A DNA stretch of 36,817 nt from a virus. The stretch is from the IMG/VR virus record IMGVR_UViG_3300043411_000811, positions 1-36,817 of that record; one strand, written 5' to 3'. The notes beneath the pieces were generated by a model, which saw only the letters and a list, made by a program, of their open reading frames with translations, did no database searches and was not told where the DNA came from. Shown one piece after another: positions 7,155 through 26,399 of this stretch. Both the position numbers and the translations under genes were made by a program. Every line of letters begins with the position of its first letter. The first letter of the stretch is position 1.

Positions 7155-7568
7155 TTAAGACTTAAGACCTCTCTTGAGCCTCGATTGTCTCATCGCCTCT
7201 TTGTGTTTCTCTGAAAGCGGTTTTCCTCTTTTACCGTTCCCTAATTTCTTTCTAACTTCTGCAGAATGTCTAAAGCCGAATCCTCTTCCTTCGCCGCCAT
7301 CAGTCAAATTTAATAGACAACCAGTCCCGTTGTCTCTTCTTCCGTATTTGTTTATTTCCTGAATTTCCAAACAATGGGCTTGTTCCTCAGTTAGTTCAAC
7401 ATGAAGAAATTCAACTATTGGCTCGAAACCCTCGTCTCTCATTTTACGAAGAAAGTTCTTATAAAAGTTATTTCTGTAATTAAATTCATAAGCACGTTTG
7501 CCCTGTCCCTTTCCGACATAGAAAAGGACAGAGAGCCTAGGGTCTATATGAGCATAAACGTAGAACAT
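7155..7568 (-). CDS. GIY-YIG homing endonuclease
   Basis: The 137-residue protein is a free-standing GIY-YIG nuclease. The N-terminus shows YVYAHIDP (3-10), the GIY-like strand, and FYVGKGQGKRAYEF (from 16), which includes the YVG strand and the catalytic-type Arg. The conserved Glu lies in CLEIQEI (about 84-90), and LNLTDGGEG closes the nuclease domain. The C-terminus has SAEVRKKLGNGKRGKPLSEKHKEAM, a NUMOD3-type DNA-binding segment as in I-TevI relatives (only parts quoted: SAEVRKKLGN). I chose the ATG at 7568 because it overlaps the upstream stop by 1 nt (TGATG) and sits right at the start of the domain. These genes spread by cutting cognate sites lacking them; no intron is evident. Confidence 0.9.
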   Translation of the reverse strand: MFYVYAHIDPRLSVLFYVGKGQGKRAYEFNYRNNFYKNFLRKMRDEGFEPIVEFLHVELTEEQAHCLEIQEINKYGRRDNGTGCLLNLTDGGEGRGFGFRHSAEVRKKLGNGKRGKPLSEKHKEAMRQSRLKRGLKS

Positions 7569-7906
7569 CAGAACATTCGCACAGAAATTTCGGCGTAGTC
7601 TCCCTGACGGCCGGACCACTGAAGCAGCTTCAGAACTCCGCCGTTATAGTGACCAGCGACAGCCGCCGCCATGCCGATCAACGCAGGGTTGCCGATGAGG
7701 AGCAGGAAGTCCTCGTCGGTGAACCCTTTCAGCTTTTCGTGGAGATCACCGATGATGTGTTCCGGGTTGAACGGGTGAGCGCTCGGGCTCAAGAGATACT
7801 CGAGCGGGCCGAAACGTTCAGCTTTCTCCAGGGTCCGGAACCGTGGAACAAGCTCACCGGTCTCTTCATCAAACCGCATTTGTTTCTGGACGACGAATAC
7901 AGTCAT
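7568..7906 (-). CDS. Conserved hypothetical phage protein
   Basis: A 112-residue protein follows the SNF2-like helicase. I take the second ATG (7906): it overlaps the helicase stop by 4 nt (ATGA), and AAGGA lies 6 nt before it; the ATG 6 nt upstream is the alternative. It opens with MTVFVVQKQMRFDEETGELVPRF-type sequence (quoted: MTVFVVQKQMRF), a beta strand and turn, with an FGPLEYLLSPSAHPFNPEHI stretch and a C-terminal hydrophobic block (LLLIGNPALIGMAAAVAGHYNG). I recall this type of opening from small phage proteins near helicases, without a known function. The helicase-coupled position suggests a DNA-metabolism accessory. Confidence 0.75.
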   Translation of the reverse strand: MTVFVVQKQMRFDEETGELVPRFRTLEKAERFGPLEYLLSPSAHPFNPEHIIGDLHEKLKGFTDEDFLLLIGNPALIGMAAAVAGHYNGGVLKLLQWSGRQGDYAEISVRMF

Positions 7907-9378
7907 ATCCATTCCTTCAATTCGTCGCCGAGGATCGTGCTGGCGATGTCACGTTTGTTGCGAAGATTGTCCACGATCCTCTCGTCCACTGTTCCTGGAC
8001 AAACGATGTCAATGTAGCTCACAGGATTATTATCCATACCAGCACGATGAGCTCTGTCCTCTGATTGAAGACGATCGATCAAACGAAAACTGTTCGAGTA
8101 GTAGACCATCGTCTTGGCCTGATGGAGAGTCAAACCTGGACCTCCCTTTTGGGCTGTGCCGACGAACCACTGGACATCTCCAGCTTGGAACGCGAGCTTG
8201 TTCCGTTCGGCCTGATCGTCGTCCACCGAGCCATCATAGCGAACGGCCTTGTCGCCCAAGAGGGCCATGATCTGGTCTACGTCATGACGGAACCTTGCCC
8301 ATACGATCGCAGGATGAAACGTCTGATCACGAATGTCTTCCATGGCCTCAAGGCGAGGGTTCTGGTTGCCCAAGATGCGGACAGGTTCATCATCACCAGT
8401 CGGGACGTAATTGCAAAGGATCTGCTGTAGACGCAGCAACCGGACGATTGGCAACTCGCCATCAAGGATGTCCCCGTCGTCGAAGTCATACAGGAACTCT
8501 TCCTTCAGTTCGTTGTAGATCGCTTTCTGCGTGGAAGTCATTTCCACATACTTCTTGGAATACAGTTTCGGCGGAAGATCGAGGACATCGTCCTTCAGCA
8601 CCCGGTCAGTGATTTCTGCCAGCCACTCCTCGAGCAGCTGAAGGTTCTTGTAGCCGAGAAGCTTGTCGAAGCCAGGATCGTAACCAAGCTGACGCTTGCA
8701 TTCCTCAGCTGTGAACCACTCGCCGAAGAATTGTCGGAACTCGACTGCACCACCGATACCCTTCCTCTTCCAGAAGTTCTCATCAAGGAACCGCACCTGA
8801 GCATAGACGTCGAATGGGCCGATTGCGATCGGGGTTCCGGTGAGGATACGACGGTGCGTCGCATATTTACCACTGGCGATGATCGACTTCGTCCGCTTGG
8901 CACCTGGAGCCTTTATGTTGTGAGCCTCGTCAAGGACATAGAGGCAGCGGCGACGGCGAAGGAACTTCCAGACGGTGTCCTTGCCCTTCTGGGTCATGAA
9001 CGCATTGTAGGAGATCAGCATGACAGCGAGGCCGCGATGCTTCATCAGCATCTCCATCGCTCGAGCATGATCCTTGGTATCCTTCTTGGCAGTCAGGAAC
9101 ACCTGGACCATTGTGTCCAGTGCGACGTGTGGTGGCATATGCTTCGGGATCTCGTCGGTGTTCCAGTTTCGCTCAACTCCAGGAGGAGCGACGACGAGCA
9201 GACCATCGATCTCACCATTCATATATAGGAAGCAAGCGGTGTCAACGACTGGCTTGGTCTTGGCAGTTCCTTGTTCCCAGAACAAGCCCCATGCTGTAGC
9301 ACGAACGTGTTTTTCGAGATGTTCCTTCTGGTGATTGAACGGATCAATAACGTGAGGATACTGCGATAGATCTATCAT
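7903..9378 (-). CDS. SNF2-like DEAD/DEAH DNA helicase
   Basis: The 491-residue protein is a superfamily-2 helicase with SNF2-type organisation. Motifs in order are a Q-like HQKEHL segment (16-21), a P-loop EQGTAKTK (35-42), LDEAHN (148-153), LTGTPI (about 179-184), and in the second RecA domain GGPGLTLHQA and RAHRAGM (motifs V and VI). The second-domain motifs with RAHR are typical of SNF2/Rad54-type translocases. The P-loop is odd: GTAKT replaces the canonical GxGKT, so a Gly before the Lys is Ala. The Lys and Thr remain, so ATP binding may survive. Start: the ATG at 9378 has AAAGGAG about 7 nt before it; a longer frame to 9414 overlaps the HNH gene's end and lacks such a site. It is flanked by HNH and GIY-YIG homing genes. 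Confidence 0.9.
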   Translation of the reverse strand: MIDLSQYPHVIDPFNHQKEHLEKHVRATAWGLFWEQGTAKTKPVVDTACFLYMNGEIDGLLVVAPPGVERNWNTDEIPKHMPPHVALDTMVQVFLTAKKDTKDHARAMEMLMKHRGLAVMLISYNAFMTQKGKDTVWKFLRRRRCLYVLDEAHNIKAPGAKRTKSIIASGKYATHRRILTGTPIAIGPFDVYAQVRFLDENFWKRKGIGGAVEFRQFFGEWFTAEECKRQLGYDPGFDKLLGYKNLQLLEEWLAEITDRVLKDDVLDLPPKLYSKKYVEMTSTQKAIYNELKEEFLYDFDDGDILDGELPIVRLLRLQQILCNYVPTGDDEPVRILGNQNPRLEAMEDIRDQTFHPAIVWARFRHDVDQIMALLGDKAVRYDGSVDDDQAERNKLAFQAGDVQWFVGTAQKGGPGLTLHQAKTMVYYSNSFRLIDRLQSEDRAHRAGMDNNPVSYIDIVCPGTVDERIVDNLRNKRDIASTILGDELKEWI

Positions 9379-9400
9379 GTGGTTTCTCCTTTTCTGAATG

Positions 9401-9847
9401 CTAGTATAGCCCAAGAAAAGTAAGAACAGCTTTCACAGCAGCCCTCTTTTCTCCAACTGTATCGTAGTCACCAATGAATTTCTCACTGCCATTAATTTCT
9501 AGGAAAACTTCTCTCGAACTTGTTATTCTATCTGAACGATCTGAGTTTTTCACGTTTCCAGAATTACTCAATTCTCTCAGATTATCTATACGATCATCAC
9601 TCGGTATTCTATTGCGATGATCAAGTCTCTTGTCTTTGTCAGGGAGCCTGCCTTTATGAAGAAGCCACACTACATGAGATGTGTAGTATCTCTCCCCATC
9701 AATAGACATCTGCCGCCTTCCATTAGAGTTCTCTGTGCCTGCATATGACCCAGGAAGAACTGTAGATCCTCTCTGAATTTTCCAGACAAGCCTGCCAGTT
9801 TCTTCTTCATACTTAAGAAGTTCCTCTGCTCTTTCTTTAATTAGCAT
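9401..9847 (-). CDS. HNH homing endonuclease
   Basis: The 148-residue protein matches phage HNH nucleases. It starts with a helix (LIKERAEELLKYEEETG) and a strand pair (RLVWKIQ, GRRQMSIDGERYY). The body has SHVVWLLHKGRLP (about 57-69), the nuclease core with LDHRNRIPSDDRIDNLREL (75-93), and asparagines after it (NVKNSD). The DH..N..DNRI-type core is the HNH ββα metal site. A C-terminal part with IGDYDTVGEKRAAVKAV resembles AP2-like DNA-contact strands. The SD AAGG lies a few nt before the ATG, and a promoter candidate lies 39 nt upstream. It sits at the border between the repeat-dense spacer and the replication genes, where such mobile genes often settle. Confidence 0.88.
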   Translation of the reverse strand: MLIKERAEELLKYEEETGRLVWKIQRGSTVLPGSYAGTENSNGRRQMSIDGERYYTSHVVWLLHKGRLPDKDKRLDHRNRIPSDDRIDNLRELSNSGNVKNSDRSDRITSSREVFLEINGSEKFIGDYDTVGEKRAAVKAVLTFLGLY

Positions 9848-19184: not shown

Positions 19185-19540
19185 TCTGGCAATCCAAGAA
19201 GTTCAGCTGAAACTACCCAATACTTCCAACCGATATTTTTCAGTTTATACGGAGTATTTCCTTGAAAGCGAAACTTTGCGAATTCAGCCTTCCTTGGGTG
19301 TTTCATGACAAAAACTTTTGATCCAAGTGACAGATCCCTTATAACGAATTCTTCAAACAGGCTAAGCTGATCTTCATCAAAAAGCCATTGAACAGAAAAC
19401 AAAGAAGTCACTGTCGTCGATTGCAGTCTCTCCATCGCTGGCCCAGATTCAGTTTCAAAAGAAACCTTCTTCGATATGAGAGATTCGTCATACCCATCTC
19501 TCAAAATAAAACTCGGAAGCCCTTCAGGGAAATTTATCAT
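19181..19540 (-). CDS. Minor tail protein below the tape measure
   Basis: The 119-residue protein is all-beta with MINFPEGLPSFILRDGY at the start, LFSVQWLFDEDQLSLFEEFV in the middle (quoted in part: LFSVQWLFDEDQ) and KHPRKAEFAKFRF and YWVVSAELLGLP near the end. This is the size and shape of the distal tail or tail-tip adaptor proteins encoded directly after the tape measure (HK97 gp17-type, lambda gpM-type). It overlaps both neighbours by 4 nt. The family name is inferred from position and general pattern. Confidence 0.72.
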   Translation of the reverse strand: MINFPEGLPSFILRDGYDESLISKKVSFETESGPAMERLQSTTVTSLFSVQWLFDEDQLSLFEEFVIRDLSLGSKVFVMKHPRKAEFAKFRFQGNTPYKLKNIGWKYWVVSAELLGLPE

Positions 19541-22500
19541 CGATTAACCTTCCCCGGACGAAGACCAAATCTGCTTCCAGCAGAACCGTCAAACTTTCCT
19601 GAGCTGAATCCCTTGTCAACTTCAGAAATCACAAGATTTACTATCTCATCACCATTTGGCGATTTGCTTCTTTCTTCAGTCTTCTTCACCCCAACATTGT
19701 CGATGATATTGAAAGTGATGTTCGCTCCTCCACCCCTGCCATTTGTCTGAACACCGAGCTTACCATCTTTGGTTCTGCTCAGAGGGACGACCGCCTCTGG
19801 GCCTTTTTCTCCCATCACACCAAGCCCAAGAGAGCTTTGGAACGCAGCCGGAGAAGAAACGATACTGTTGGTGAATACCCCGCCTTTCGCAAATGGAAGA
19901 GGCGCAGGAGGGTAGATATTTCCCATTGAACTGAATTTTCCAAGGACAGTGCTAAACACCATCTGGAAGGCTTGAGAAAGAGCCAACTGAACAAGCTGCT
20001 TCGATATCGATCTTATCAGCGAAGAAAAATCAGCTTCACCATCGACGATGAAGTCTGCCAAAGCAGAAGACATTCCATCGAACGCAGACGTTATGATATC
20101 TTCAACTTGCGACGCATAGTCACCAGTCTTTTGTAGAAGTTTCAAAAGACCTCTTTCCATCCCAGAGACCGCGTCAGTCTGAGTTTCCAGGAATGTGATT
20201 CTAGCGCTCACGACTGATTTTGTGAATTCGGGTTGATTTATCTTACCTTGCTTCAGCAATTCGTTCAGTGCAGTAAGCGAAATTTTATAGTCTTCAGCAG
20301 GACCTTTTATGTCCTGGAAGATAGATTGCATTTTCTTCAAGGCCTCATTCTCAAGAACGAGCTGCCCTATGAGAACTTTTTCATCTGCTGTGAGGGCTCT
20401 TTTAAGAGCTCTTTGTATCTCAGCTATTTTTTGATTTTCTTTTGTCAGAGATATGTTCTCACGAAGAACTTCATTTTCAAGAGTGAGATCGCGAACATAA
20501 TCGGCGAAAGTTTTCGATTTGTTCTTTGAACCATCCGAGCCAGAACCGAGTTTTCCCGGTATTCCTTTTGAATCCAAATCAACTGAAGAATTCGCAAGAC
20601 GCTCGTTGGCTTTTTGTCTCGCTCTCTCAAGAATAGCATTCATAGCATTACCGACATAATCGGTGCTGAGAGATTTGCCAAATTCTTCACTGAAGATTTT
20701 GCCGACTTCAGATGCAGCACCAGACAATTCCTGACGATACTGGCTGAGATCAACTTTTCCAAACATATCAGAGAACGGGTTCTCTTGACCAATGGCGACG
20801 GCAGCTTGACCGATGAGATCCAATATACTTTGGATCGCTGCAAGGATTCCATTTACACCATTTTCGACAACTGTGAGAAGACCATTTATAGCAATCTTTC
20901 CAATGTCCATGAGAGCGGCTGGGAAGATGCCCCATGCTCTGATCACAGCATTTATTTCACCGACCCACAGGCCGATGAACAGATTGACATGTGTCTTCGT
21001 TACGGTTAGAATCAAAGCGAGACCAGCAGTTATATTGTTCCACAACTGCGAAAAGACGCTATTGACAAATTCAACGGCTGGTCCGAAGGTGCTGACAAGG
21101 AATGCACCAATTGGAGCTATCGCTTCCATGATCAATTGGAACGTCGCAACACCAATATCTCGTAAAGTCACCATGCCGTCTTCAGTGACAGATATTTTGT
21201 TGGAGAAGAACACAAGAGTAGAGACAGCAGCAACGATAAGAGCTATTAGTGCTCCAATTGGATTAGCGACTATGATCGCCCACAGACCGGAGAAGGCAGC
21301 AGCAACACCACGAACGATTGCTGCGAGGCCTGGGAAGGCCGTGCTGAGCCGTGCGAGTATGCCTCCGGCTGCGGCATTGGCAGTTGCTGAACGCGTCTGA
21401 GCGGCGCTCAGAGCCGCCGTGGCAGTGGTCTGAGCAGCAGTGGCGGCTGTCAGCTGGCTTTTTGTCGCCAGCAAAGCTGTCTCGGTTCTCTGAAGAGCTA
21501 TATTGCTCCTGATGTTCTGAGCGACCGCTGCATTATATGCGATGAACCTACCAGTGAGAGCGTCACGAGCGATCCTTCTGCTATTGTCAAGAACTATTGA
21601 GGCTTTTTGTTGAAGAAGCAAAGCTCTTTGGGACTGTAGCTGAACAGCTTCTACTTGCAGAGACCAAACTTTTGCTCTCACTAAAGCTGACTCAGCAGAA
21701 GCAGCCTGAAGCGAAGAAGCAGCCTTTGCCTGTTCAATGCCGACAGCGGTAAGCATCGTTGCATTGCCTGAAGCGACAGCAGAAGAGATCTGCCGTTGAA
21801 CAGAAAGCCATGAAATTAATGAAGAGACTATTGATCCGATTTTCCAACCAGCGAAAGCTGTAGTCGCAGCTATAACTGATCCTATGAGAATATTGAGAGA
21901 ATACGCAAGCAAAATTATCGCATTAGCGACGGCAGCGCTAGCGCCTGTGACATCATCAAACGAATCTAGAACTCTTAACAATTCATTTCGAAAGGGTTGA
22001 AATGACTGTCCAATAGTGGGAATGGTTTTGCCAAATTTCTCTGCTACTTCTTCTCTTGCATTTTTGAAAGAGTTGACAATCAATTCTGCCGTCAACTTTC
22101 CTTCTTTACCCATTCCTCTCAATGAGGATCTTGAATTGAAGAGCGCGCCAGTTATGAGTTCTATGGGTTCTTTTGCGCTGTTCAAAGCTGTGCCAGAAAT
22201 TTTGCCTGTTCTCACAAGCTCTTTTCCGATCAAGTCAGCGACATACGGGAGCTGTTCCAGAATTGAACGTAATTCATCACCAGCCAAACGGCCAGAGGAC
22301 AAGCCCTGAGAAAGCTGAATAAGAGCAGCCCCGGCTTCACGACTGCTAGCGCCTGAAAGAATAGTCGCCTTGTTCAATGTTTCTGTGACACCAAGAGTCT
22401 CTCTTTGAGAAAGACCGAGCTGTCTTACAGAAAGAGCAAGTCTTGTATAGAGCTCTGCTGTTGACTCAAAACTAGAACGAGTCCTGCTTGCGATATTGAA

Positions 22501-22758
22501 CAACTCTTCTTGAACAGCGTTTAGCTCGGCAGTGGACTTTGTTACCAAGACCAAACGATTTTCAAAATTTGTCAAAGTATCGAGCATTCTGGTTAAGCCA
22601 GAAAGAAGTCCAGCGCCACCAAGAACAAACAAAGAATTCTGCAATAGCCGAAGACCATGAACAGAACGTTCAGCAACAGAACCTATCTCCTCGAGGCTGC
22701 GCTTTACAACCCGAGAACCGTTCTCTCTGACGATGATGTCAATGGTTTCTCTTGTCAT
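19537..22758 (-). CDS. Tape measure protein
   Basis: The 1073-residue protein sets tail length. The N-terminal domain (about 55-260) has the tape-measure signature: TRSSFESTAELYTRLALSVR, TLNKATILSGASSREAGAALIQLSQGLSSGRLAGDELRSILEQLP (only short parts: ATILSGASSREAGAALIQ), and the KISGTALNSAKEP type segment. Then come long helical and Ala-rich regions, hydrophobic segments near 490-525 (ANPIGALIALIVAAVSTLVFF) that can insert in the membrane during ejection, and a C-terminal part with NIYPPAPLPFAKGGVF. The C-terminus is followed by the tail-tip genes. From its length, the tail would be roughly 160 nm at 0.15 nm per residue (family rule, not measured). It starts with an ATGA overlap. Confidence 0.93.
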   Translation of the reverse strand: MTRETIDIIVRENGSRVVKRSLEEIGSVAERSVHGLRLLQNSLFVLGGAGLLSGLTRMLDTLTNFENRLVLVTKSTAELNAVQEELFNIASRTRSSFESTAELYTRLALSVRQLGLSQRETLGVTETLNKATILSGASSREAGAALIQLSQGLSSGRLAGDELRSILEQLPYVADLIGKELVRTGKISGTALNSAKEPIELITGALFNSRSSLRGMGKEGKLTAELIVNSFKNAREEVAEKFGKTIPTIGQSFQPFRNELLRVLDSFDDVTGASAAVANAIILLAYSLNILIGSVIAATTAFAGWKIGSIVSSLISWLSVQRQISSAVASGNATMLTAVGIEQAKAASSLQAASAESALVRAKVWSLQVEAVQLQSQRALLLQQKASIVLDNSRRIARDALTGRFIAYNAAVAQNIRSNIALQRTETALLATKSQLTAATAAQTTATAALSAAQTRSATANAAAGGILARLSTAFPGLAAIVRGVAAAFSGLWAIIVANPIGALIALIVAAVSTLVFFSNKISVTEDGMVTLRDIGVATFQLIMEAIAPIGAFLVSTFGPAVEFVNSVFSQLWNNITAGLALILTVTKTHVNLFIGLWVGEINAVIRAWGIFPAALMDIGKIAINGLLTVVENGVNGILAAIQSILDLIGQAAVAIGQENPFSDMFGKVDLSQYRQELSGAASEVGKIFSEEFGKSLSTDYVGNAMNAILERARQKANERLANSSVDLDSKGIPGKLGSGSDGSKNKSKTFADYVRDLTLENEVLRENISLTKENQKIAEIQRALKRALTADEKVLIGQLVLENEALKKMQSIFQDIKGPAEDYKISLTALNELLKQGKINQPEFTKSVVSARITFLETQTDAVSGMERGLLKLLQKTGDYASQVEDIITSAFDGMSSALADFIVDGEADFSSLIRSISKQLVQLALSQAFQMVFSTVLGKFSSMGNIYPPAPLPFAKGGVFTNSIVSSPAAFQSSLGLGVMGEKGPEAVVPLSRTKDGKLGVQTNGRGGGANITFNIIDNVGVKKTEERSKSPNGDEIVNLVISEVDKGFSSGKFDGSAGSRFGLRPGKVNR

Positions 22759-23237
22759 TCTTCAGAGCTCGCTGTCCTGTCTAAGAGACGTGCCTGAGCT
22801 ATCTCCACTTGGGCTTCCATGAGAGCTGCTTGAACCCAATCATTTGGCTGTTGAGATGAATAACCATCACGCAAACGACCAAGATAAGGTATGGCATTCG
22901 TTATGAATAGAGCAACGCCAGCTTGTCCAGTTCCTCTTTTCATACTAACTGAAAGTCTGTTTATAACTGCGAAACCAGCCTGGATCGCGGCACGAGCATT
23001 CTGCCGTTCACCAATCCCAAGCTTCTTCCCAGGAACATATGCTGGGATAACCGCACTAGTCGGATTGCCCAAGGAGACGCGCCAGTTCGATCTGGCGTCG
23101 CCTTTATCAACTGGAGTCCCCTCAACAAGAGAAGAAAGAGTTCGTTTCGCAACACGCTTTGTCAAGCTGACGGAATTGTTCTCGATCCTAGAACCGAGTT
23201 TCCGTATATTGCGAGAGAACTGTATGAGAGACGCCAC
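22755..23237 (-). CDS. HK97 gp10-like tail/neck protein
   Basis: The 160-residue protein starts with GTG, which overlaps the frameshifted chaperone's stop by 1 nt (TAGTG). It has a helical N-terminus with SIRK-type residues (FSRNIRKLGSRIENNSVSLTKRVAKR), then the key motif GTPVDKGDARSNWRVSLG (about 59-76; quoted: TPVDKGDARSNW). A short NAIPYLGRLRDGYSSQ segment follows. This motif (PVDTGRAR-NW) marks the HK97 gp10 / tail completion family. In many phages these lie near the connector; here it sits between the chaperones and the tape measure. The C-terminal helix has MEAQVEIAQARLLD. Function: a tail-neck or tail assembly component. Confidence 0.75.
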   Translation of the reverse strand: MASLIQFSRNIRKLGSRIENNSVSLTKRVAKRTLSSLVEGTPVDKGDARSNWRVSLGNPTSAVIPAYVPGKKLGIGERQNARAAIQAGFAVINRLSVSMKRGTGQAGVALFITNAIPYLGRLRDGYSSQQPNDWVQAALMEAQVEIAQARLLDRTASSEE

Positions 23238-24003
23238 TACTTCTTTTTCCTTCTATGCTCAAGATAGGCGGAGTCGAGCTCCTTTATGTGATGGTGCATC
23301 TCTTCAATTTGGTCATCGCTGAGTCCATATGCCATGCAATAATCATAAATGACTTTCCACGGTATAGGACCCAGCTCCATCCCTATCTGTCGACTGTCAG
23401 AGAGCTCAAGGAACGCTAGATAGTAAAGTTCCAGCCCTGTTATGAGCTCAGGAGCATTTGCAATACGATCTGGGAACGGAAGATTTTCCCTCAGGCATTG
23501 ATGAATGATCTTTTGCTCGACAGCCCCCTGCTCCAGGAAATAGAGCAGGACCTCTACAAGTTTTTTGCGTCGGCCTCCATTTCTGCCTTGCGGAACAGAC
23601 TGATCCCTTCGGCGGCCTGCTGAAGATCAACAAAGATGGCCGGAAGAACCTTGAACGTGAGCATGATGTTTTCCGGTGTGACCTCGAGGATGCCGCCACC
23701 CTTCTTGTGGATTCCGTTCTTCCACTTGGTATTGCCATCCTTGTCTTCACCGTCGGCGACCTGCCAGTTGAAGATGACAGTCTTGGCGTAGATGTCATAG
23801 AGCAGTGCTCGCGAGCGATCTTCCGGCATTGTCCCAGCCTGAATTGCACGGCGAAACGGCTTTGTCTTCGCCTCGGCGTAGGACAGATACTTCTTGTTCG
23901 CGCCACCGGCACGACCAATCTGGACACGGAAGTCACCATAGTCAATCCAAATCCCATCAGACTCGAGGACTGGATCGGTTTCAAACTGGTCGAACATGCT
24001 CAT
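23237..24003 (-). CDS. Tail assembly chaperone, long form made by -1 frameshift
   Basis: A -1 slip at A AAA AAC joins the 148 zero-frame codons to a second frame that runs, without stop, from 23560 to the TAG at 23239-23237. The product is 255 residues. The second frame has no suitable start codon of its own, and reads as protein: LVEVLLYFLEQG, IIHQCLRENLPFPDR, ELITGLELYYLAFLELSD, PWKVIYDYCMAYG and DDQIEEMHHHIKELD. This is a helical, hydrophobic-acidic T-type domain as in GT chaperones. Its stop overlaps the GTG of the next gene by 1 nt. The split is thus not a broken gene but programmed recoding. It binds the tape measure and recruits tail tube subunits. Confidence 0.85.
23554..24003 (-). 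CDS. Tail assembly chaperone, short form (zero frame)
   Basis: The 149-residue protein is the unshifted product of a lambda G/GT-type gene. It has a compact N-terminus (DQFETDPVLESDGIWIDYGDFRVQIGRAGG) and a RSRALLYDIYAKTVIFNWQVADGED middle; the family carries related patterns. It is read in the zero frame to a TAG at 23556-23554, shortly after the slippery site at 23566-23560. The ATG has AAAGGAG before it. It lies between the tail tube and the tape measure, the required position. The short form helps fold and coat the tape measure; it is normally made in excess over the extended form. Confidence 0.85.
   Translation of the reverse strand: MSMFDQFETDPVLESDGIWIDYGDFRVQIGRAGGANKKYLSYAEAKTKPFRRAIQAGTMPEDRSRALLYDIYAKTVIFNWQVADGEDKDGNTKWKNGIHKKGGGILEVTPENIMLTFKVLPAIFVDLQQAAEGISLFRKAEMEADAKNL
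23560..23566 (-). promoter_or_regulatory. Slippery site A AAA AAC for -1 ribosomal frameshift
   Basis: The minus strand reads GCA AAA AAC TTG TAG in the zero frame, so the heptamer A AAA AAC has the right phase for a -1 slip. The zero-frame stop lies 3 bases after it, and the -1 frame then stays open for 107 codons. Slips on A AAA AAC are well known in phage and IS elements. A downstream stimulatory stem was not verified. Confidence 0.85.
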
Positions 24004-24037: not shown

Positions 24038-25576
24038 TTATTCGGCAGCGGTCGGAAGGTAGCCGAAGAATGTGAGAAGCATGGTGTGATCCATGCCGGT
24101 TGCGATGTCCTCGCCGGTCGCAGCTTCCATGTTGAGGGGAAGAGTGATCGGCTGATCTTTCTCGACGTTCAAACGACCATCACCAAGCGAGACAAGAGGA
24201 ACGTCGATGACGATACCCTGATTGTCCTTGACAATCGCCATGTCGAGAGTGATGTCAGCATTGTTGCGAACAGCTTGAACAGCAGCGACATTGCTGAAGT
24301 AAGCAGTAACGCTGCCACTGACCTGGAAGGTTCCAGCGGTCACGTCGAAGGAGCCAAGAACGCCGACGGCCTTGTTCGGTGACAAATTGTTGTTCAAGAC
24401 AATGCTTGCCTCGGTGATGAAGGCGAACAGAGCAGTCGGGGCCTCGTCAGTGCTTGAGACTGTCGACATCTTGACTCGCGAGAAATCACTCGACGTATTG
24501 AAGGTGTCTGCTTTCTGCGGAGTGACAACTGAAGACTGGAGCGGGCCTTCAGATGACAGACGCTGAAGATGATCGATTGCAACGAAGCTCATATCAATGT
24601 TGACCAGATTGGAAGTCGGGACATTGATCGTGAACTCGTTCGGTATTGCACCCTTCAGATACTCAGACTGAATTTCCGAAGGATTGGAGTCGTCGGAAGC
24701 TCCAAGCGTCCGTTCCAGGTGATACGAACGACGCTTGATGGCCGATCCTGTTTCGTTGCGGAGAACGTCGCCGAAATAGATGTCGACCAACTTCGTTGTA
24801 TTGGCCTCGGTGACCATCGCCAGGACAGACTTGTCAAGTGTCAAGGCATTGGCTGCGATCGCACGAACACGCTTGAAGCCGTTGTTTGCAGCCGTGGAGA
24901 ATTGATTCGCAGTGAGATCTCCACCAAGGAAAATCCACTGGCCGACGACCAGACCGAGTGTGGTGAAATTAAGAGTTGTTGACGTCAACTTGGGAAGATC
25001 ACCTGATGCATCCACGTCGATATCGCCAGAGGCCGATCGATGTCCGACAACCTGGATATAAGCTTTCGCCGGAGGAGATGCCTCAGCAACGAGTTGACCA
25101 GTAGCGACTTCCACAGAAGTATTGGCGACGACAGCCGTGACGACGTTGAGGCCATTGTTCGCAGAATTGGTGAAGTTCCAGCCCTTGATCAGCGAACCGG
25201 CGAGAAAGCCAGCAGTGGAGGCAACCTCATATTCATCGGGATTGATCGTGTCAAGATCGACGGCAGTGACGAGCTCATATCCATTCTTTCGCGTATCGGC
25301 GAAGAAGACACCCTGGAGAAGATCCTGGATGTTGTAGAAGCTCAAATTGTGATTGAACCCGCCGGAAGCGTCAAGATCAGTGACGACACCCTTTTTGCGT
25401 TGACGAGAAGGATTGATGGGATCAGGCGAAACCGTCGTCACGTCACCGCCGAAATCGTCATAGCTGTTCGGTTCCAAACGATTCCAGACAGGTGAACCAC
25501 CAAGAGTTCCAAGGCTGGCTTCTTCAGCATAGGCCAGTCCAGTGATATTTGAATCGATCTTATTGACCTGAGCCAC
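24038..25576 (-). CDS. Major tail tube protein with internal duplication
   Basis: The 512-residue protein is the tube subunit. The core N- and C-terminal parts (about 1-110 and 280-512) have the order of beta-tube proteins of long-tailed phages: ITGLAYAEEASLGTLGGSPVW near the start, with a C-terminal pattern of strands containing VLGSFDVTAGTFQVSGSVTAYF and LDMAIVKDNQGIVIDVPLVS. An inserted block (about 115-275) contains two related units: residues 116-170 and 200-257 both show G-x(2)-G, then (S/A)ANNG followed by a V-x-A-x-x-AN core. The duplicated units probably decorate the tube. Start: GTG, with AAAGGAGG 5 nt before it. It follows the tail terminator gene, as expected. Confidence 0.85.
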   Translation of the reverse strand: MAQVNKIDSNITGLAYAEEASLGTLGGSPVWNRLEPNSYDDFGGDVTTVSPDPINPSRQRKKGVVTDLDASGGFNHNLSFYNIQDLLQGVFFADTRKNGYELVTAVDLDTINPDEYEVASTAGFLAGSLIKGWNFTNSANNGLNVVTAVVANTSVEVATGQLVAEASPPAKAYIQVVGHRSASGDIDVDASGDLPKLTSTTLNFTTLGLVVGQWIFLGGDLTANQFSTAANNGFKRVRAIAANALTLDKSVLAMVTEANTTKLVDIYFGDVLRNETGSAIKRRSYHLERTLGASDDSNPSEIQSEYLKGAIPNEFTINVPTSNLVNIDMSFVAIDHLQRLSSEGPLQSSVVTPQKADTFNTSSDFSRVKMSTVSSTDEAPTALFAFITEASIVLNNNLSPNKAVGVLGSFDVTAGTFQVSGSVTAYFSNVAAVQAVRNNADITLDMAIVKDNQGIVIDVPLVSLGDGRLNVEKDQPITLPLNMEAATGEDIATGMDHTMLLTFFGYLPTAAE

Positions 25577-25587
25577 ATTGGCCTCCT

Positions 25588-26007
25588 TTATTTGACTTCA
25601 TCGTAGCGAAACTCGATGATGACGTTCAGTTGAAAGAATTCACCGTCACGTCCGATTTCGTTCAACCTCACGTTACGGAACCATACTCCACCAGGAGTGC
25701 TGATACCTTCGAAGGCGTCAGACACCACCTTAGCCAAATCGTAAGCCTCTTGCAAGCCCTTTCCGTTTGGCGTAAATATCTGAACCGTAATAAATCCAAT
25801 TCTTGCGAATGTCATACTTCCCTCAGCACCACTGAGAGTTGCTTGGAATCCACTCACATGTTTAAGAGTTACTGTGGCCCATGGTTCTTCATCTTTTGAT
25901 CTTTCCTCACGAACATCTTCATAATGCACAGGATAGCCAGTCGTGTCCCATGCCGCCTTAAAGACGTCAAGGATTTCATCACGAGCCTCCTGATGCGTAA
26001 GGCTCAT
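25588..26007 (-). CDS. Tail terminator, DUF4128-like
   Basis: The 139-residue protein matches the tail terminator class that closes the tube. It has MSLTHQEARDEILDVFKAAW (1-20), followed by a strand set with WATVTLKHVSGFQATLSG, RIGFITVQIFTPNGKGLQEAYDLAKVVSDAFEG (quoted in part: ARIGFITVQIFTPNGKG) and a C-terminal FFQLNVIIEFRYDEV. The IFTPxGxG and AxxLA patterns are typical. The ATG at 26007 overlaps the upstream stop by 4 nt (ATGA); a longer frame exists but has no such support. Position just before the tail tube supports the call. Confidence 0.82.
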   Translation of the reverse strand: MSLTHQEARDEILDVFKAAWDTTGYPVHYEDVREERSKDEEPWATVTLKHVSGFQATLSGAEGSMTFARIGFITVQIFTPNGKGLQEAYDLAKVVSDAFEGISTPGGVWFRNVRLNEIGRDGEFFQLNVIIEFRYDEVK

Positions 26008-26399
26008 CGACGAACTCCAACAAAAGCGAGAAGAGTTGTCGAACCAGGTTTCAATACCTGAAGGCCAATGATGCCCCATCGATCACCATTGTCAACAACG
26101 CTTGTGAATTCTCGCAGATCATTGTCTCCTTGGGCAGTGATTATTATCTGCTCACTGAAAGTTACAAGATCTTTGAATTCTGTTCCCTCTCCAAGAGCAG
26201 TCAATCCAAATTGTCTTACAGTGTTCGGTGGAACAAAAACACCATTCAAAGCAAGAGTGGTTTCTCCACCGCTTGCTGGTCCTTTCCATGGACGACTTGG
26301 ATTCGCAGGAGTCGTATTGAGCTTAACGAAACTGATGCTCCTGCCATTGTTCCTGACAAGACGCTCTGCCATTTCTGCAAGACGAGTGTAATCAACCAC
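26004..26399 (-). CDS. Head-tail joining or neck protein
   Basis: The 131-residue protein is placed between the connector and the tail terminator. It begins with a helix (YTRLAEMAERLVRNNGRSISF), then a strand-rich body with PWKGPASGGETTLALNGVFVPP, TEFKDLVTFSEQIIITAQGDN, and a C-terminus of GIIGLQVLKPGSTTLLAFVGVRR. I choose the GTG at 26399, which overlaps the upstream gene by 8 nt; the longer frame from 26528 would overlap the connector gene by 137 nt and is rejected. The order connector, this protein, tail terminator suggests a neck protein (HK97 gp9-like). The sequence family is not certain. Confidence 0.72.
   Translation of the reverse strand: MVDYTRLAEMAERLVRNNGRSISFVKLNTTPANPSRPWKGPASGGETTLALNGVFVPPNTVRQFGLTALGEGTEFKDLVTFSEQIIITAQGDNDLREFTSVVDNGDRWGIIGLQVLKPGSTTLLAFVGVRR

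Follow-up and report, generated by a model that had tools for sequence, protein, structure and literature searches.

A very probable programmed -1 ribosomal frameshift joining the G and T tail assembly chaperone frames of a phage contig and its relatives

The lambda tail assembly chaperones gpG and gpGT are reportedly produced by way of a ribosomal frameshift (Levin 1993; Xu 2004). The lambda slip site is GGGAAAG, unlike the AAAAAAC described below. In the model for lambda, the tape measure protein is the binding partner of G and G-T, and the tube protein that of T; the 30:1 ratio of G to G-T matters, and both proteins leave before the tail is completed (PMC5009743). Phage tail assembly chaperone constructs of HK97 type gave 6-7% frameshifting (PMC3711429), and joined -1 chaperone frames have been treated as the usual state (PMC8601537). 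Two described systems are closer to the locus studied here. In Burkholderia phage KL1, gp18/gp19 have GGGAAAC by the stop, a stem-loop predicted in the next 35 bases, and an intervening gene (PMC3483164). In Acinetobacter phage vB_AbaS_Loki, gp12/gp13 have AAAAAAC adjoining the gp12 stop, and a gp10-like gene lies ahead of the tape measure gene (PMC5313236).

We analyzed a 36.8-kb IMG/VR virus contig (the window, to which all positions refer unless stated), whose minus strand carries the feature. Judged from the sequence, ribosomes very probably pass from the G to the T tail assembly chaperone frame here by programmed -1 frameshifting of the lambda G/GT kind. These frames sit between the tail tube and tape measure genes, with one gp10-like gene (22755-23237) separating them from the latter. 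The order is the same in relatives. Among the phages related to this contig are Yuavirus, Nipunavirus, Rhodobacter, and Bordetella phages. The features of the locus are as follows.

25588..26079, minus strand: tail terminator (phrog_179, E = 3.3e-32; PF13554)
24038..25576, minus strand: tail tube protein (PF18906 Phage_tube_2, E = 4.4e-34)
23554..24003, minus strand: zero frame, tail assembly chaperone G, 149 aa, ATG 24003 to TAG 23556-23554 (phrog_313, E = 8.8e-19; phrog_8233, E = 4.3e-8)
23560..23566, minus strand: slippery heptamer A AAA AAC in the -1 register (from the sequence; AAAAAAC or GGGAAAC in 132/139 distinct relatives)
23554..23556, minus strand: zero-frame TAG, one codon past the heptamer (from the sequence)
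23526..23550, minus strand: probable downstream RNA hairpin, 10 bp with a 5-nt loop, arms 23550-23541 and 23535-23526 (synonymous recoding, pair counts)
23237..23560, minus strand: -1 frame T extension, 107 codons, CTT 23560-23558 to TAG 23239-23237 (PF23812 Phage_TAC_18, E = 1.8e-19; phrog_3817, E = 1.5e-30; phrog_8233, E = 1.1e-17; dN/dS about 0.08)
22755..23237, minus strand: HK97-gp10/Neck1-like tail completion protein, GTG start (phrog_169, E = 4.1e-23; PF04883)
19537..22758, minus strand: tape measure protein (phrog_3336, E = 1.3e-123; PF20155, PF09718)

An HK97-gp10/Neck1-like gene between the chaperone and tape measure genes is part of the shared order in YuA, RcTitan, NP1, KL1, and Loki. 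Elsewhere in the window, a minus-strand gene at 215-1123 matches the 5-hmdU DNA kinase helical domain (PF18723, E = 8e-34), and from this match the phage DNA probably carries hypermodified thymine. An HNH_3 endonuclease gene (9401-9847, minus strand) and an ORF without a Pfam match that by eye resembles GIY-YIG (7155-7619, minus strand) flank an SNF2-type helicase gene (7903-9414); the products of both might be homing endonucleases. A further minus-strand ORF, cut by the contig end (3-218), resembles by eye the start of a UDP-glucose 4-epimerase. No tRNA genes were found in the 36.8-kb stretch.

Slip site and the -1 extension

The initial annotation had placed the end of the zero frame at 23554, just past A AAA AAC, and all of its coordinates held when the sequence was re-read. 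The zero frame ends GAC GCA AAA AAC TTG TAG, with A AAA AAC in the X XXY YYZ register and a single sense codon (TTG) between the heptamer and the TAG. AAAAAAC is found only once in the whole stretch, at 23566-23560. Past a stop at 23629, nothing interrupts the -1 frame until TAG 23239-23237. Counting from the heptamer to that TAG confirmed the 107 -1 codons and the 255-residue fusion that had been proposed. The -1 frame also ends 1 nt inside the next start, as claimed, since base 23237 is also the first letter of the GTG that starts the next gene.

Both halves match known tail assembly chaperone families. G matches phrog_313 and phrog_8233. The extension had been read as a plausible chaperone T domain, and its matches (phrog_3817, phrog_8233, and PF23812 Phage_TAC_18) are all tail assembly chaperones. 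One PHROG model, phrog_8233, covers both halves. AlphaFold2 modeled G as a mixed alpha/beta protein (pLDDT 90) and T as a helical one (pLDDT 86). Despite these confident models, nothing relevant matched when G and T were compared with the PDB by sequence and by fold.

Comparison of the extension with close relatives in the -1 frame gave a pN of 0.06-0.08 and a pS of 0.47-0.56 (dN/dS about 0.08), versus a dN/dS of mostly 1 to 2.4 for other readings of the same region. Conservation in the -1 frame begins at the heptamer itself, where K-L is invariant. These comparisons indicate that the extension evolves as a protein, under purifying selection in the -1 frame.

The junction in relatives

Relatives came from annotated phages and a single bacterial contig as well as from IMG/VR. 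A first IMG/VR scan with the zero frame found 44 relatives, and there were 139 distinct junctions in all. A junction was counted if it had an in-register X XXY YYZ heptamer and a -1 frame that was at least 60 codons long or ran off the contig. This was the case for 136 of the 139. The heptamer was AAAAAAC in 69 of these and GGGAAAC in 63, with one each of AAAAAAT, GGGAAAT, AAAAAAA, and GGGAAAG; 132 of the 136 end in C, and one ends in G. Most heptamers lie 0-1 codons ahead of the zero-frame stop. Fifteen lie 46 nt ahead of it, a placing seen in Yuavirus and Vojvodinavirus records. A canonical heptamer adjoining the stop occurred in none of 1,138 other ORFs of at least 100 codons from the relatives' loci.

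Three junctions fell outside the 136. L139 keeps the -1 T frame with the junction GCA AAA TCC TAG, without a canonical heptamer (T domain at L139:1025-1120). L026 has a frame break within G, yet ends ...EEEAKN. L072 has GGGAAAC, with a -1 frame of just 47 codons.

The two common heptamers have been exchanged repeatedly. Parsimony placed 25 changes between AAAAAAC and GGGAAAC on a G tree, at least five of them forced by well-supported branches, although this tree was built from G minus its last residues and is weak because it has few columns. The near relatives L128 and L133 have GGGAAAC and AAAAAAC, respectively, within very similar flanks (a three-base swap). Swapping AAAAAAC for GGGAAAC preserves slipperiness and not the residue (Gly versus Lys). 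Therefore, the exchanges point to selection for slipperiness rather than for the encoded residue.

It had been predicted that about 100 codons here would escape a plain gene caller, and the records of relatives agree with this. Among 14 annotated relative records, three join the frames, nine have T as an ORF of its own that begins at an internal start, and two omit T, so that the T half is lost or shortened in 11 of the 14. Because T is so often lost or shortened, annotation pipelines should join these frames. In the YuA record (L048), a strong -24/-12-type promoter is annotated at 2690-2850, within the unannotated T region.

We considered whether something other than ribosomal frameshifting might explain the junction. 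The many records that annotate T as its own ORF from an internal start, and the TTG found a few codons past the junction in some relatives, would fit a separate T protein, made without a frameshift by reinitiation or from an internal start past the G stop (translational coupling). However, T has no start of its own here, as the initial annotation had stated. No ATG, GTG, or TTG precedes ATG 23380, which follows some 60 codons of the extension and is inside the conserved domain, and a start there would yield only about 47 aa of it (CTG codons occur in the extension at 23548 and 23536). Moreover, 82 of the 136 relatives have no start before the junction or within 10 codons of it, conservation starts right at the heptamer, and the heptamer is explained by nothing except slippage. 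We consider a separate T very unlikely.

A shift by RNA polymerase rather than the ribosome is less likely still. AAAAAA is a homopolymer run on which polymerase could slip, but it is a short one, and six A residues are few for transcriptional slippage. About half of the relatives instead have GGGAAAC, without a long run, which fits tandem tRNA slippage. Sequencing error or gene decay would be conceivable for a single IMG/VR virus contig that is possibly a fragment. Yet isolated phages and distinct contigs, more than 130 in all, share the same -1 junction under purifying selection, and this recurrence refutes an error or a decayed gene, leaving it a negligible probability. Programmed -1 ribosomal frameshifting is thus by far the best account of the junction.

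Downstream hairpin

The sequence after the slip site can form a 10-bp stem (23550-23526) that is separated from the heptamer by a 9-nt spacer, and the spacing in the family is about 9-10 nt. Because the hairpin region is coding, we used as a null synonymous recodings in which the -1 protein is unchanged and codon usage stays that of the phage. In this contig, the hairpin was more stable than the recodings (z of -3.25 to -3.5 in two runs). For 31 representatives, the Fisher p value was 1e-17. Among 94 representatives, the mean z was -2.4 for the AAAAAAC set (p = 1.8e-28) and -1.8 for the GGGAAAC set (p = 2e-18), although all of these Fisher values are too small because related representatives are not fully independent. 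Individually, 62% of the AAAAAAC and 48% of the GGGAAAC representatives had p < 0.05. The 31 representatives had hinted that the hairpin was limited to AAAAAAC sites, a difference that was gone in the 94 (Mann-Whitney p = 0.13).

Pair counts were made on 53 junctions that were partly chosen for the standard hairpin register. In these, pairing was 81%, versus 76% when shuffled and 34-57% when slid, and there were 29 double changes versus 12. Because of how the 53 had been chosen, the count was redone on all 90 junctions, which gave 68% pairing versus 63% shuffled and at most 53% slid. Double changes in the 90 exceeded the shuffles but not every slid control. RNAalifold found no consensus pairs in the 53 junctions, and an Rfam search found no match. 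The initial annotation had suggested folding the RNA after the site as a check. The hairpin exceeds the synonymous null, but dinucleotide shuffling of the 70 nt past the slip site of this contig gave a z of only -0.35, which is not significant. The case for the hairpin therefore comes from the synonymous-codon test and the pair counts, and these suggest that it is probably real and selected.

We also considered GGAGG upstream of the heptamer as a Shine-Dalgarno-like stimulator. It was within the synonymous null (Fisher p = 0.75 in 31 representatives; p = 0.45 for this contig), and its presence is accounted for by the encoded amino acids.

Proposed mechanism and comparison with known systems

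In the proposed mechanism, the majority of ribosomes would terminate at TAG 23554 and release the 149-aa G. A minority would slip one base back with tRNA-Lys and tRNA-Asn on AAA AAC, re-pair on AAA AAA, and continue for 107 codons to make the 255-aa G-T fusion. The hairpin about 9-10 nt past the heptamer would probably pause the ribosome and increase slipping. Such a boost would matter because A AAA AAC shifts weakly in E. coli, where AAG-type sites slip better. We infer that a weak heptamer with a hairpin suits a low, tuned proportion of G-T. As in lambda, the tape measure protein might be coated with many copies of G, and the few G-T molecules might bring tube subunits to it via T.

A broader rule is quite possible, although we would not yet call it probable. 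The G:G-T ratio of the family may be set by a modular signal that consists of a C-ending heptamer, swapped repeatedly, with the stop usually at most one codon away and a hairpin under selection that lies about 9-10 nt past the heptamer. A deliberately weak site plus a structure would then be the rule. One more copy of a textbook phage device is of little consequence for the field. Even so, the family amounts to a natural experiment on the tuning of a chaperone ratio, with some 140 homologous sites, two heptamers that replace each other, and a probably selected hairpin. We did not find the hairpin-selection test or the heptamer-swap count described for this chaperone family, and they are mildly new.

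Compared with dnaX-type full bacterial -1 signals, this locus shares the slip site and, probably, the 3' hairpin, whereas the GGAGG in the place of the 5' SD-like element carries no sign of selection. The Rhodobacter phages RcThunderbird, RcRudolph, and RcSimone-Hastad have the same gene order and are annotated with joined -1 frames but differ in having a GGGAAAC heptamer. A standard hairpin in the same register was not found at the RcThunderbird/RcTitan and RcRudolph sites. Lambda gpG/gpGT are alike in how they work: a short chaperone and a rarer -1 fusion are encoded between the tail tube and tape measure genes. KL1 (JF939047), which has a joined CDS, is homologous in both G (hhalign 99.9%) and T (HMM E = 4.3e-46) and differs in that GGGAAAC is directly ahead of TGA. 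Loki (LN890663), with its frames joined in the record, is also homologous in G (hhalign probability 99.9%) and T (HMM E = 3.6e-40). It shares with this locus AAAAAAC near the G stop and the placing of an HK97-gp10-like gene after the chaperones and before the tape measure gene. However, G is only about 30% identical, and the Loki heptamer abuts TAA, versus one intervening codon here. The frameshift is therefore an ordinary, textbook phage device, and the same arrangement has been published for the homologous KL1 and Loki.
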